From: Elusimicrobiaceae bacterium
GTDB lineage: Bacteria > Elusimicrobiota > Elusimicrobia > Elusimicrobiales > Elusimicrobiaceae
Length of the DNA: 46,000 bases
Direction: 5' to 3'
NCBI GenBank assembly: GCA_017520185.1
Contig: JAFXGO010000023.1
Location: 1 to 46,000, forward strand
Shown: one piece after another, positions 2,589 to 7,657 of the stretch
Position numbering within the stretch: position 1 is the stretch's first letter
Layout of the letters: the number at the start of each line of letters is the position of its first letter
Program-made: the position numbers and the translations under genes
Notes under the pieces: model-generated
Databases searched by the model: none
Seen by the model: only the letters and a program-made list of their open reading frames with translations
Told to the model about the DNA's origin: nothing

Positions 2589-3104
2589 ATGGGATGGAAA
2601 GGCAGAGAATTAGTAGAGAAGTCAGGGCTTGATGTAGAAGAAGTTTTACATTTATTAAATAAAGCCTACTGCGATGAATGGCTGGCTTATTATCAATATT
2701 GGATTGGGGCCAAAGTAGTGGTAGGTTTACCACGTGAAAAAGTGCAGGCAGAACTTATTGAACATGCCAATGAAGAATTGGACCACGCCAACCGCTTAGC
2801 AGAGCGCATTATCCAGTTAGGAGGCACTCCTGTTATTGATCCGAAAAGATGGTTTGAGCTTAGCTCCTGCGGATATTTAGTACCCAAGGATCCGGGTGTA
2901 GATGCCCTGCTTGACCAAAATCTTAAAGGAGAGCGATGCGCCATTGCCGTCTATAAAAAATTATTGGATTTTGTAAAAGGGAAAGATATGATTACCGGTC
3001 ATTTAATCCGTCATATCTTGGAAGAAGAAATTGAACACGAACAAGATTTAGAAGATATCCAAAACGATATCGCACACTTTAGAAACGGGGGCGGCAAAAA
3101 ATAA
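2589..3104 (+). CDS. DPS-like ferritin (DPSL / thioferritin type)
   Basis: 171 aa four-helix ferritin-like protein. Candidate di-iron ligands are E30 (CDEWLAYYQYW), E63 and H66 (EELDH), E115 (GERC), and E147 and H150 (EEEIEH). Two cysteines, C94 (SSCGY) and C117 (GERCAIAVY), flank the fourth ligand region. That pair is the hallmark I associate with the DPSL/thioferritin group of archaea and anaerobic bacteria, which detoxify H2O2 while storing iron. Lack of a signal peptide fits a cytosolic cage. Strong Shine-Dalgarno AAGGGGG. Alternative: bacterioferritin-like protein without haem. Monocistronic, closed by a strong terminator. Confidence 0.8.
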   Translation: MGWKGRELVEKSGLDVEEVLHLLNKAYCDEWLAYYQYWIGAKVVVGLPREKVQAELIEHANEELDHANRLAERIIQLGGTPVIDPKRWFELSSCGYLVPKDPGVDALLDQNLKGERCAIAVYKKLLDFVKGKDMITGHLIRHILEEEIEHEQDLEDIQNDIAHFRNGGGKK

Positions 3105-3444: not shown

Positions 3445-5133
3445 ATGGATAAAGAACAAGGTGTTATTGTTGCTAAATCGGCCGGCTTTTGTCCGGGTGT
3501 TAAGGGAGCTATCGATAAGGTGCTGGAGTTGGAAGCCTCCGGCAAAAAACCTATCTATACTTTAGGCCCCCTTATTCACAACAAACAAGTGACGGATATG
3601 TTGGCCGCCAAACAAATTTCTTCCGTAGATAAACCTGAAGATGCTCAAGACAAATCAGGCGTTCTGGTAATTCGCGCACACGGCATTACCCCTGCCTTTC
3701 GCGCAGAAGTGATGGCCAGCGGCATGAAAGTAGTGGATGCCACTTGCCCATTGGTTAAACATGCCCATGATGTCATTTCTAAATATGCCCAAGAGGGTTA
3801 TCATACCGTCATTGTAGGAGACGGCGGACATGCAGAAGTGATCGGCCTTTTAGGCTGTACACAAGGCAAAGGAATTGTGGTGTCCGGACCGGAAGAAGCC
3901 CAAAATTTACCACACTTTGATAAAGTAAATATCGTTTCTCAAACTACGCAAAAAGAAAGTGTCTTTTTTGCAACGGCTGAAATTATTAAAAACAAAGCCG
4001 ATATTTGCCAAATTTCCAATACCATTTGTCACCCTACCAAATTGCGCCAAAGCGAAACCATGCAAATGGCCAAAAATGCTGATTTGGTAATCGTCGTAGG
4101 AGGCAAACACAGTGCCAATACCGCACGCTTGGCCCTCTTATGCCGCGAATTAGCACCCAAAGTGCTGCACATTGAAACGGAAGCCGAACTGACACCGGAG
4201 CAGGTATTACCTGCCAAACGTATTTTTATTACCGCCGGTGCATCCACTCCCAACTGGGTTATTGACCGCGTGGCCAATTGGGTACGCCAAACCCGTAAAA
4301 AACGCGGGGTATCGTTTACCCATTTTATTCAAAAACTTTGGGCCAAATGGGTATCCGCTTCCATTTATACGGCTTTTGCCGCTTCGGCTTTGACCTATGT
4401 TTGTATGAAATTGGAAGGATTACACTTTCAATGGAAAGAAGTGTTGTTTGCCGGTTTCTTCGTTTATAGTTTAACGGCCGTTAACAGAGCCTATGATGAA
4501 AAACCGCATAGTTTTTCCAAACTAAATTGGACATTGTGGTACGGTGCAGCCGTCGTGGCATTATGTTTAGCAGCCATGATGAGCCTAAAGGCCCTTATGC
4601 TCACTTTGCCAATTTTAATAGCCGGTCTTTTATACCCCTCCCGGCATTTCTTAAAGTCCAAGATTTTATCCATTTCAGGAACGAAGGACTTCTTTACCTC
4701 TTTGGGTTGGGGATATGCTTGTGCTTTTTTACCGGCCTTTGCCAACGATTTACTATTAAGAAAATCTTCTTACTTGGCTATTTTCTATGCCGTACTGTTG
4801 GTATTTATGCGTTCTGTGACGTTGGGTTTTACCTCTGCCAACAAAGATCTGATGATTGGTAAAGAGAGTTTTTATAAAGCCTTCGGCATAGGAAAAACCA
4901 AACTGGCCGTCATGGGCCTTTTGGGCGCATTAACAACCGTACTAGCCGTACTGTTAACCATTACGTGGAAACCGGCTTTGGTAGCCATGTTATTGGTAGG
5001 TAATTTATATACCATCTTTATTGTAATTTATTATTATAGTCACACCGTATCTCGAGGCACTAAAGAGGAAACTCTTATTGATGCCCAATTTTTCGTATTG
5101 TGTATATTAGTGTGGCTTTCTCGTTTCATTTAA
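3445..5133 (+). CDS. ispH: 4-hydroxy-3-methylbut-2-enyl diphosphate reductase (IspH) fused to a UbiA-like membrane domain
   Basis: 562 aa. Residues 1-283 are IspH, the last step of the MEP isoprenoid pathway, making IPP and DMAPP. The three [4Fe-4S] cysteines are C16 (GFCPGV), C101 (DATCPLV) and C195 (TICHPT); H45, H79, E131 and T168 of the active site are present, as is GASTP. Normal IspH ends here at about 290-310 aa. Residues 300-562 add some seven hydrophobic segments. They resemble UbiA prenyltransferases: N347xxxD351 where the first Asp-rich motif would be, YPSR near 397, and TSANKD to FGIGKTK (463-486) like the second motif and its LG tail. Several aspartates are missing, so activity is uncertain. 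The fusion would couple isoprenoid supply to the membrane. Followed by pfk 15 nt downstream. Confidence 0.85.
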   Translation: MDKEQGVIVAKSAGFCPGVKGAIDKVLELEASGKKPIYTLGPLIHNKQVTDMLAAKQISSVDKPEDAQDKSGVLVIRAHGITPAFRAEVMASGMKVVDATCPLVKHAHDVISKYAQEGYHTVIVGDGGHAEVIGLLGCTQGKGIVVSGPEEAQNLPHFDKVNIVSQTTQKESVFFATAEIIKNKADICQISNTICHPTKLRQSETMQMAKNADLVIVVGGKHSANTARLALLCRELAPKVLHIETEAELTPEQVLPAKRIFITAGASTPNWVIDRVANWVRQTRKKRGVSFTHFIQKLWAKWVSASIYTAFAASALTYVCMKLEGLHFQWKEVLFAGFFVYSLTAVNRAYDEKPHSFSKLNWTLWYGAAVVALCLAAMMSLKALMLTLPILIAGLLYPSRHFLKSKILSISGTKDFFTSLGWGYACAFLPAFANDLLLRKSSYLAIFYAVLLVFMRSVTLGFTSANKDLMIGKESFYKAFGIGKTKLAVMGLLGALTTVLAVLLTITWKPALVAMLLVGNLYTIFIVIYYYSHTVSRGTKEETLIDAQFFVLCILVWLSRFI

Positions 5134-5148
5134 AGGTTGGGAGGGATT

Positions 5149-6249
5149 ATGAGCATTAAAAAAATTGGTATTTTAACAGCCGGCGGGGACTGCCCCGGAT
5201 TAAATGCGGTCGTGCGTGCCGTTTGCAAAAATGCCCTTCGTCAAGGGGTGGAAGTATTAGGTTTTAAAAACGGATTTGACGGATTGGTACTCAATGAATT
5301 TATCCGCATCACGTCTGAAACGGTATCCGGCATTTTAACTTTGGGAGGTACCATTTTAGGCACCAGCAATATTGCTAACCCCTTTAAATACACCCTCCCT
5401 CCTTTTGGCTCTGCCGAAAAACCGAATGATTTATCCTCCGTTGCAATACACAATTTCAAAGCCAACCAATTAGATGCCTTAATTACCATTGGTGGAGACG
5501 GCACTCTGACCATGTCTCAAAAATTTGTAGATTTGGGCCTGCCGATTGTTGCCGTACCCAAAACCATTGATAATGACCTTTCCGCTACTGACCAAACCTT
5601 TGGTTTCGATTCTGCCTTGACCGTAGCCACAGAAGCCATTGACCGCATTCACACCACCGCTCAAAGCCATCACCGCGTGATGATTATTGAAACGATGGGC
5701 CGTTATGCAGGCTGGATCGCTTTACGTTCTGCTATTGCCGGCGGCGGTGATATTATATTGATTCCGGAAATTCCATACAATGATGATGTCATCGTAGAGT
5801 ATCTGCTCAACCGCAAAAGTCAAGGTAAAAACTTTAGCATTATTGTAGCGGCAGAAGGCGCTAAAAATGAAAAAGGAGAGCAAGCCATCACCCGTACGGT
5901 GGCTGCCAGCACAGACCCGATTCGCTTGGGCGGTATTGCTTATAAACTCAGCGATATGATTGAAAACCGCACCCAAATAGAGTCTCGTGCGTGTGTGTTG
6001 GGCCATATGCAACGCGGAGGCACTCCCACCGCTTTTGACCGCTGGCTCTCTACTTTGTACGGAGCGAAAGCCTTTGATATGGTCATGGAAGAAAAATTTG
6101 GCTATATGACCGCTTTCCGCAACTTTGGCATTACGGAAGTAAAAATAGCCGATGCTATCAGTAAATTAAAATTAGTCGATCCCAACGGAGAAGAAGTAAA
6201 AGCCGCCCTGAAAATAGGTATGAGTTTTGGTTCTGCCCAAATTGGCTAA
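5149..6249 (+). CDS. pfkA: 6-phosphofructokinase
   Basis: 366 aa. Phosphorylates fructose 6-phosphate in glycolysis. Signatures: GGDCPGLN at the N-terminus, IGGDGTLTMS, VPKTIDNDL with TDQTFGFDSA, and ETMGRYAGW. The phosphoryl-donor positions read Gly in GGDGT and Lys in PKTIDND. Classical ATP enzymes have Gly/Gly and PPi enzymes Asp/Lys, so this Gly/Lys combination places it in the mixed group III, where I would favour ATP but cannot decide. The start is the ATG at 5149, preceded by a GGGAGGG Shine-Dalgarno; an upstream TTG at 5137 lies within that ribosome site and is unlikely. It lies 15 nt after ispH and 12 nt before the methyltransferase, so the three probably form an operon. Confidence 0.9.
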   Translation: MSIKKIGILTAGGDCPGLNAVVRAVCKNALRQGVEVLGFKNGFDGLVLNEFIRITSETVSGILTLGGTILGTSNIANPFKYTLPPFGSAEKPNDLSSVAIHNFKANQLDALITIGGDGTLTMSQKFVDLGLPIVAVPKTIDNDLSATDQTFGFDSALTVATEAIDRIHTTAQSHHRVMIIETMGRYAGWIALRSAIAGGGDIILIPEIPYNDDVIVEYLLNRKSQGKNFSIIVAAEGAKNEKGEQAITRTVAASTDPIRLGGIAYKLSDMIENRTQIESRACVLGHMQRGGTPTAFDRWLSTLYGAKAFDMVMEEKFGYMTAFRNFGITEVKIADAISKLKLVDPNGEEVKAALKIGMSFGSAQIG

Positions 6250-6261
6250 CAGGAGTGAAAA

Positions 6262-7011
6262 ATGAGTGAAAATTTAGATATTCTCTACGGTATACATGCC
6301 GTAATGGAAGCCTTGAAAAGTAAAAAAAGAAACGTGGTGCAATTATACGTTTCCGATAATAAAGCCGGCCATCGTGCCGTAGAAGAAATTATTCGTCTGG
6401 CCAAACGCAACAATGTTAAAATTGACCGCATGGATTTAAAAGTGATGGACCGCCTGACCAAAGGGGCCAACCATCAAGGTGTGTTGGCCAAAGCACAACC
6501 CGTACGCTTGATGAAATTATCCACTGCCATGTATGAAGCCGACGGAAATAAAAAAGATTTGTGGCTGGCTATTGACGAAATGACCGACCCTCAAAATTTG
6601 GGTGCCATTATCCGCAGTGCCGCTTGTTTGGGATTTTCTACCATCATCTTGCCTCAACGCAGAACGGTGGGTTTAACTCCTGCCGTATATAAAGTGGCCT
6701 GCGGCGCGGTGGAAAATGTAAATATCGTAGAAGTGGCCAATTTATCCAACGCCTTGCTGGATTTAAAAGAGGAGGGCTTTTGGATTTACGGGGCGGATAT
6801 GGACGGACAATCCATCACCCAAACCGATTATGCCTCTCCGGCGGTATTGGTCATCGGCTCTGAAGGAACGGGTATCCGCGAAAAGACTGCCGAAAACTGT
6901 GATCAAATTATTTCCATTCCGCAAAAAGGTGGCGTAGAAAGTTTAAATGCTTCTGCCGCAGCCAGCATTATCATGTATGATATGATGGCCAAAGTGCAAC
7001 TGAAAAAATAA
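6262..7011 (+). CDS. rlmB: 23S rRNA (guanosine-2'-O-)-methyltransferase, RlmB/TrmH family
   Basis: 249 aa SpoU-family enzyme. The N-terminal substrate-binding domain begins LYGIHAVMEAL and ends with NHQGVLA; the SPOUT knot carries the three motifs IDEMTDPQNLGAIIRSA, VIGSEGTGIR and IPQKGGVESLNAS (the last has V where many have M). The full set and the length match RlmB, which methylates G2251 of 23S rRNA in E. coli, though a tRNA target as for TrmH relatives is possible. Shine-Dalgarno AGGAGTG precedes the ATG. Last gene of the ispH-pfk unit, closed by a perfect terminator. Confidence 0.85.
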   Translation: MSENLDILYGIHAVMEALKSKKRNVVQLYVSDNKAGHRAVEEIIRLAKRNNVKIDRMDLKVMDRLTKGANHQGVLAKAQPVRLMKLSTAMYEADGNKKDLWLAIDEMTDPQNLGAIIRSAACLGFSTIILPQRRTVGLTPAVYKVACGAVENVNIVEVANLSNALLDLKEEGFWIYGADMDGQSITQTDYASPAVLVIGSEGTGIREKTAENCDQIISIPQKGGVESLNASAAASIIMYDMMAKVQLKK

Positions 7012-7076: not shown

Positions 7077-7556
7077 TTAGTTCATGTAATAGCAGGTATC
7101 ACCCGTTCCGCTGACACATTGATCACCGGAACCCCAAGCACTAAAACCAATATCTCTACACAAAGAATACCTTGTTGAAGCAGCTTTACAAATGCGATAT
7201 CCCAAAGAATTCATGTGCAAAGTGACAGAATCAGGATTATAGCGCGCCCCCGCCACAATAAACGGCCCTTCCGAAGTACAATCTCCGGTAATTCCATAAG
7301 TAAAATATTTAGAATCTTCTACATCAACGGAAAGGGCGCTCGGTGTTATATATGTGGCTGACGGATTTTCTAAACAATATACTTGTCCTGCTTTCAGTAA
7401 AGCACTCATATTGCTCCATGCTTCAGCAGTACGGCTTTTAAGCACCGTTTTTTGATATTGCGGCAAAGCCACCGCAGACAAAATACCGATAATTAACACC
7501 ACTACCAACAATTCAATCAGCGTAAAACCGCTGCTATTTTTAAATGATTTTTTCAT
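7077..7556 (-). CDS. Type IV pilin-like protein (copy A)
   Basis: 159 aa. The leader is MKKSFKNNSG-type, cut after Gly before FTLIELL (prepilin peptidase site, Glu at mature position 5). The helix [19 protein letters not shown] is followed by LPQYQKTVLKSRTAEAW. The C-terminal globular part has paired cysteines (RICKAAS...CRDIGF) and ends CYYMN. The start is the ATG at 7556, with an AAGGA Shine-Dalgarno; in-frame codons further up are upstream sequence. It stands alone with its own promoter and terminator; no pilus assembly gene is nearby. Likely a major or minor pilin, or a pseudopilin, of a type IV pilus or secretion system encoded elsewhere. Confidence 0.85.
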   Translation of the reverse strand: MKKSFKNSSGFTLIELLVVVLIIGILSAVALPQYQKTVLKSRTAEAWSNMSALLKAGQVYCLENPSATYITPSALSVDVEDSKYFTYGITGDCTSEGPFIVAGARYNPDSVTLHMNSLGYRICKAASTRYSLCRDIGFSAWGSGDQCVSGTGDTCYYMN

Positions 7557-7594
7557 AGTGTAAGTCCTTTTTGATTTAAATTCCCTGCTCTTTA

Positions 7595-7623
7595 AATTTA
7601 ACAAAAAAAAACTAAAACGCCAA
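7595..7623 (-). promoter_or_regulatory. Promoter of pilin copy A
   Basis: TTGGCG (7618-7623), 17-nt spacer, TAAATT (7595-7600) with TGT immediately before it (extended -10). The 5' leader is about 30 nt and carries AAGGA. Confidence 0.6.
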
Positions 7624-7657
7624 GTATTTTTAATTTCCGATGAAAAAATGCTCAATA

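Follow-up and report, generated by a model that had tools for sequence, protein, structure and literature searches.

An IspH fused to a UbiA-fold membrane domain with an incomplete aspartate signature in Elusimicrobiota

Introduction

Fusions of IspH with a UbiA-like protein were described in 2015 as "Rosetta stone" sequences, 47 in number and primarily from Desulfobacterales (Rao et al., 2015, PMC4746011). The UbiA part of these proteins was classed as PT_UbiA_5, a group of unknown function, and carries two DXXXD repeats; membrane localisation together with a local supply of IPP/DMAPP was suggested for the sulfate-reducer fusions (PMC4746011). The same study reports IspH-RPS1 fusions, many of them in Firmicutes (PMC4746011). 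A different kind of coupling is represented by UBIAD1, a UbiA-fold protein that has been found bound to HMG-CoA reductase (PMC4374513, PMC8641950).

The locus considered here lies in a stretch of 46,000 nucleotides, hereafter the window (positions 1 to 46,000 of contig JAFXGO010000023.1, assembly GCA_017520185.1, Elusimicrobiaceae bacterium), whose source is described as a gut bacterium. A preliminary description of the window recognised an IspH-UbiA fusion as an architecture not familiar to its author; it had been published in 2015 (Rao et al., 2015, PMC4746011). Judged from the gene sequences and as far as the literature was searched, the phylum, the missing acids and the repeated loss of the domain appear to be new. 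Among the titles returned by a search of open-licence papers for such fusions, none concerned Elusimicrobiota.

The fusion gene and its IspH domain

The fusion gene (3445..5133, + strand) is one open frame of 562 codons plus stop, with an ATG start and no internal stops in the ORF reading, and homologous fusions occur in relatives. Residues 7-281 (3463..4287, +) constitute the IspH (LytB) catalytic domain, an assignment that draws on PF02401, TIGR00216, invariant residues and a fold match. Residues 7-280 match PF02401 LytB with an E-value of 6.8e-84 and 281.7 bits (cut-off 24.5), the TIGR00216 match of 262.5 bits exceeds its cut-off of 187.85, and the predicted fold of this part gives a Z score of 30.9 to E. 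coli IspH. Cys16, Cys101, Cys195, His45, His79, His129, Glu131 and Thr167 are invariant in 61/61 distinct fusion proteins; the three cysteines are those of the 4Fe-4S cluster, and the Glu, Thr and His residues those of the active site, as in E. coli IspH. The complete IspH with its three cluster cysteines, and its continuation without a stop into a UbiA-like membrane part, had both been noticed beforehand; the former is borne out by the profile matches and the invariant cysteines, and the latter is a real and conserved feature of a single 562-aa frame.

The fused protein is the sole IspH match of the window's genome (1,415,172 bases in 34 contigs were searched, completeness 95.48), which also has one IspG, one UppS and one polyprenyl synthase (PF00348). 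Because these matches are single, the fused protein would be the IspH of a working-looking MEP pathway. After the IspH domain comes a linker, residues 282-299 (4288..4341, +), predicted as a single helix continuing from IspH (AlphaFold2, helix 270-304), and then a UbiA-fold membrane domain with nine long helices, residues 300-562 (4342..5130, +), assigned from AlphaFold2 models and structure matches.

Fold of the membrane domain

The sequence of the membrane domain resembles UbiA weakly. Residues 288-562 match PF01040 UbiA at 16.7 bits (E 0.0045), under the Pfam cut-off of 34.2 bits; the domains of diverse relatives match at E<=1 in 18 of 29 cases, the best at 1.4e-6. None of the family's fused relatives exceeds the PF01040 cut-off, and all four family proteins that do so are separate frames. 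Compared profile to profile with UbiA of E. coli and of Elusimicrobiota, the domain gives weak matches, and a domain-profile sequence search of solved structures returned no UbiA and two chance-level matches.

Structure prediction is more informative. From a 35-row alignment, AlphaFold2 models the whole protein (mean pLDDT 83.7, pTM 0.53) as an IspH fold, the helix 270-304 and a helical domain, and the domain alone, also from a 35-row alignment, at pTM 0.84 and mean pLDDT 82.5. The models contain nine long helices in the membrane domain, as in UbiA, in place of the seven hydrophobic segments counted earlier; the motif II loop is poorly modelled (pLDDT <50). In VIA-align comparisons, the domain model superimposes on 4od5 (Aeropyrum pernix UbiA) with Z 17.4 and an rmsd of 3.6 Å over 242 residues, and on 4od4 with Z 17.3, ahead of the A. 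fulgidus UbiA entries (14.5-15.1), archaeal DGGGP synthases (about 13.5) and UBIAD1 in the HMGCR complex (8djk, 13.3). Soluble prenyl diphosphate synthases score about 12-13; 4od5 leads them by a clear margin in Z, the other UbiA entries by a modest one. Owing to this lead, combined with the weak but consistent PF01040 match, UbiA is the right fold assignment for the membrane domain as modelled. A profile comparison of the C-terminal part with UbiA families, which the preliminary description had suggested, thus stays below threshold in sequence, whereas the predicted fold is that of UbiA. Seen as a possible UbiA prenyltransferase, the domain has the fold, scores below the PF01040 cut-off and lacks the canonical form of motifs I and II.

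An altered aspartate signature

Canonical UbiA proteins carry a motif I of the form NxxxD/ExxxD and a motif II of the form DxxxD, both visible in E. coli UbiA. The motif I equivalent of the fusion is N347-x3-D351-x3-H355 (4483..4509, +), in a register taken from a weak hhalign match (E 0.25); a joint MAFFT alignment placed motif I otherwise. In this register, N347 is present in 60/61 distinct fusions and the +4 position is acidic in 51/61 (E in 49, D in 2, others in 10), while the +8 position is acidic in 0/61 at the aligned column; an insert of about 11 residues follows motif I in the more distant fusions, with acids in some rows.

The motif II equivalent, S464-x3-D468...G472-K-E474...Y477-K478...G481 (4834..4887, +), takes the place of the canonical DxxxD and aligns without gaps to E. 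coli UbiA D191-D195, through to the next conserved glycine. The second motif II Asp, D468, is kept in 61/61 fusions and the first, four residues before it, in 0/61, its place being taken by S (37), A (9), H (7), Q (5), N (2) or T (1). Separate E. coli-type UbiA proteins of the phylum retain both (2/2, rows L147 and L155); the other 27 phylum UbiA proteins in the same alignment belong to another type with a different motif II.

Conservation extends beyond the two motif regions. The pair K414-D415 (4684..4689, +), which opens a helix, is kept as K in 58/61 and D in 60/61 fusions, and the ExxxD of E542-T-L-I-D546 (5068..5082, +), which opens the last helix, as E in 59/61 and D in 58/61. The residues near invariant across the 61 fusions are N347, K414, D415, R456, D468, E474, Y477, K478, E542 and D546, and most of these polar residues would, if the topology is that of known UbiA structures, sit on the cytoplasmic side near the mouth of the pocket.

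Distribution

A membrane-domain profile built from 29 rows matches 47/90 genomes of the family Elusimicrobiaceae and 94/340 genomes of the phylum Elusimicrobiota; the 94 consist of the 47, 43 from a second family in that order and 4 from further families in the class. When the set is limited to genomes with a completeness of 90% or more and a contamination of 5% or less, the matches number 30/51 in the family and 66/191 in the phylum. Searched with the whole protein, 86/90 family genomes match, many over the IspH part alone. Nearly all domain matches lie in frames of at least 500 residues and are fused. The exceptions, G047 (376 aa, with the N-terminal 195 residues of IspH on another contig) and G193 (215 aa and 353 aa on two contigs), look like fusions split by contig ends. 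No separate copy of the domain was found in the family genomes outside the 47, those with a short IspH among them, although some of these genomes are incomplete. In the genomes of the family and phylum, the domain is found fused to IspH and never as an established separate gene. The check for the same fusion in related genomes, proposed in the preliminary description, thus has a positive outcome. A search of viral contigs and plasmids yielded no relatives. The named relatives (52 loci) come from Elusimicrobiaceae/Elusimicrobiales metagenome assemblies, many of animal gut by title.

Separate UbiA genes are rare in the family. In the window's genome none was found at E<=0.001, with the same PF01040 model that found UbiA in 14/14 control genomes. 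A separate UbiA above the Pfam cut-off is present in 4/90 family genomes (G035, G045, G057 and G080, all without the fused domain and with contamination possible) and none above it in the remaining 86. In the wider class, UbiA rises above the cut-off in 115/192 genomes, many of those in the same order also having the fusion. The idea that a separate UbiA gene might be missing where the fusion is found is therefore upheld in the window's genome and in 86/90 genomes of the family, but not in many relatives of the same order, where the two stand side by side. Many genomes of the second family hold both, and the fusion and the separate UbiA are therefore not substitutes. A role in quinone synthesis was considered and is unlikely in the family, with so few separate UbiA genes above the cut-off; as the domain nonetheless persists in 47 of its 90 genomes, the quinone pathway is not the obvious partner.

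Gene neighbourhood

Directly downstream of the fusion lies a phosphofructokinase gene (5137..6249, +), which stays beside ispH where the domain is lost. The third gene of the conserved cluster, identified by a profile match and kept in relatives, encodes a SpoU/TrmH-type RNA 2'-O-methyltransferase (6262..7011, +). The order ispH-pfk-trmH (window 5137-7011 for the latter two) is kept in most family loci, with the domain or without it. Beside the more distant fusions, the recurring neighbours, named by eye, resemble uvrB, nadC, birA and queG-like genes; in some of these loci longer antisense frames displaced the ispH frame. No recurring prenyl or quinone gene was found beside the fusion in the family loci or in the distant fusions examined.

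Elsewhere in the window, a ferritin-like protein (PF00210, with a weaker COQ7 match) is encoded at 2589-3104, upstream of the Fe-S enzyme gene; no match to it turned up close to ispH in the other loci compared, though the flanks of some of these are short. Genes for pilin-like proteins that carry an N-terminal methylation motif (PF07963), such as that at 7077-7655 (- strand), recur near ispH in relatives, in varying position and orientation.

Origin, loss and selection

A tree built by a quick method from 88 IspH parts, 61 of them fused and 27 short, requires 6 changes between fused and short forms, against 23.3 with shuffled labels, and 6 changes are also the minimum forced by the starred branches of the tree. 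Within one genus, the grouping of the short forms into a single clade is rejected with p-AU 0.0005 (57 rows including the outgroup, 16 short forms tested). The tree itself gives no direction; given the homology of the membrane domains, the history is read as one old fusion followed by about five or six losses.

Where the family has a short form, ispH ends and the phosphofructokinase gene follows within about 50 bases, with the TrmH-type gene after it, the same order that the fused forms show; in L120, also a short form, the TrmH-type gene is present and phosphofructokinase is not matched. On the sequence of these loci, domain loss is a clean in-place deletion that retains IspH and its neighbours. 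Nei-Gojobori dN/dS over 169 pairs has a median of 0.088 for IspH and 0.141 for the membrane domain, and in the eight closest pairs the domain ranges from 0.025 to 0.086; high values in some deep pairs, up to 0.82, are attributed to saturation and composition. Given these low ratios, the domain is maintained under purifying selection where it is present and is not decaying.

One genome of a more distant family (G148) contains both a fused IspH (L096, G148:C73; 46% identity) and a divergent unfused IspH (G148:C87; 33%), a pair that would fit lateral transfer of the fused type. The 52 named loci comprise 37 fused forms, 14 short forms and 1 cut by a contig end. "RUG" or "Rumen" appears in the title of 9/14 short forms (those concerned fall among L069-L077, L082-L084, L066 and L067) and of 1/37 fused forms, in a count made by eye from abbreviated titles and among kin that are not independent. 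A tie between domain loss and rumen life is possible, and is offered as a lead only.

Function of the fused domain

Since the fusion is real and conserved and its membrane part has a predicted UbiA fold, tethering of IspH to the membrane, as envisaged in the preliminary description, is very likely. We propose, with confidence evenly poised, that the protein looks bifunctional and is probably mono-catalytic. The N-terminal IspH, with its complete active-site residues and as the sole IspH found in the genome, would make IPP/DMAPP. The C-terminal UbiA-fold domain would anchor it to the inner membrane on the cytoplasmic side, and the polar pocket of the domain may still bind a ligand, plausibly a prenyl diphosphate or another phosphate-bearing lipid. 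Localisation or sensing/allostery would then be a more likely job for the domain than aromatic prenyl transfer, a preference that follows from the missing full Asp set and the incomplete metal site. The prenyl diphosphates that UbiA enzymes use as donors are normally longer than IPP/DMAPP. For this reason, and with the Asp signature incomplete in 61/61 aligned fusions, the earlier suggestion that IspH hands its product to a prenyl-transfer step is doubtful, and canonical prenyl transfer by the domain appears doubtful as well. The balance tips somewhat towards tethering with sensing or allostery and away from prenyl transfer, with a rebuilt active site as a strong rival; some canonical acids remain, and the many polar residues conserved around the motifs could equally belong to a divergent enzyme that is still active.

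Such an enzyme is the alternative that survives best, and a substantial minority share of our confidence goes to it. The domain would be a divergent prenyltransferase that is still active, its metal site rebuilt (e.g. D351/E351, D468, E474, E542-D546), and would use prenyl diphosphates built from the IPP/DMAPP set free by IspH close by, as has been proposed for the sulfate-reducer fusions. It would have to act without one motif II Asp and without the last motif I acid, both missing from 61/61 fusions at the aligned columns. In its favour, acids and basic residues are conserved in the two motif regions as well as in the last helix. The predicted UbiA fold suits a transferase, and the genome encodes both a prenyl diphosphate synthase (PF00348) and UppS, but no conserved acceptor-pathway gene adjoins and the domain has repeatedly proved dispensable. 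For the sulfate-reducer fusions, prenyl transfer is the function that the original authors favour (PMC4746011).

A narrower form of the sensing proposal is unlikely: the domain would be a pseudoenzyme of UbiA fold, sensing prenyl diphosphates or membrane isoprenoids, and would exert feedback on IspH in cis, a bacterial one-chain counterpart of the control of HMG-CoA reductase by UBIAD1. Improbable too is a plain membrane anchor, in which nothing but the tether counts and the fold is a relic. The repeated clean loss of the domain and the partial loss of the catalytic signature are what a mere anchor might show, but many of the invariant positions are polar motif-region residues, which would not be expected of one, and dN/dS is low. 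Least probable by far is that two genes were joined by an error of assembly or a frameshift, the latter suspected near 4290-4340. Nothing was found in favour of such an artefact: the identical frame runs unbroken through the junction in tens of independent assemblies of relatives, which rules it out for practical purposes.

The fusion type has so far been reported only from sulfate reducers, where an active transferase was held to be likely (PMC4746011). As a trait shared by a group of Elusimicrobiota, with part of the Asp signature lost, strong purifying selection and several natural domain deletions between sister lineages in the same gene cluster, it provides a natural with/without comparison that bears on the consequences of joining IspH to a UbiA fold.

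Comparison with known systems

With UbiA prenyltransferases (PF01040; ApUbiA 4od5, AfUbiA 4tq3), the Elusimicrobiota domain shares the nine-helix fold, the Asn and some of the signature acids, but it scores under the Pfam cut-off, lacks part of the Asp signature and is fused. The IspH-RPS1 fusions likewise place a C-terminal partner on IspH, but theirs consists of ribosomal protein S1 repeats and not of a membrane domain (PMC4746011). In the UBIAD1-HMG-CoA reductase complex (8djk), a UbiA-fold protein is physically coupled to an isoprenoid-pathway reductase, as here; that system is eukaryotic, is made of separate proteins, belongs to the mevalonate pathway and contains UBIAD1 as an active enzyme (PMC4374513, PMC8641950).

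The closest counterparts are the fusions of Desulfobacterales and other sulfate reducers, which have in common with the present protein an N-terminal IspH, a C-terminal UbiA-like membrane domain and anaerobic hosts (PMC4746011). By description, the two are set apart in their motifs: whereas two DXXXD repeats are reported for the sulfate-reducer fusions, motif II in Elusimicrobiota is [SAHQNT]xxxD and motif I is without its last acid. The sulfate-reducer fusions are reported to live beside separate UbiA/MenA proteins, whereas the window's genome shows no separate UbiA. The host phylum also differs, being Elusimicrobiota here, and Elusimicrobia are not named in the main text of the earlier study (PMC4746011).
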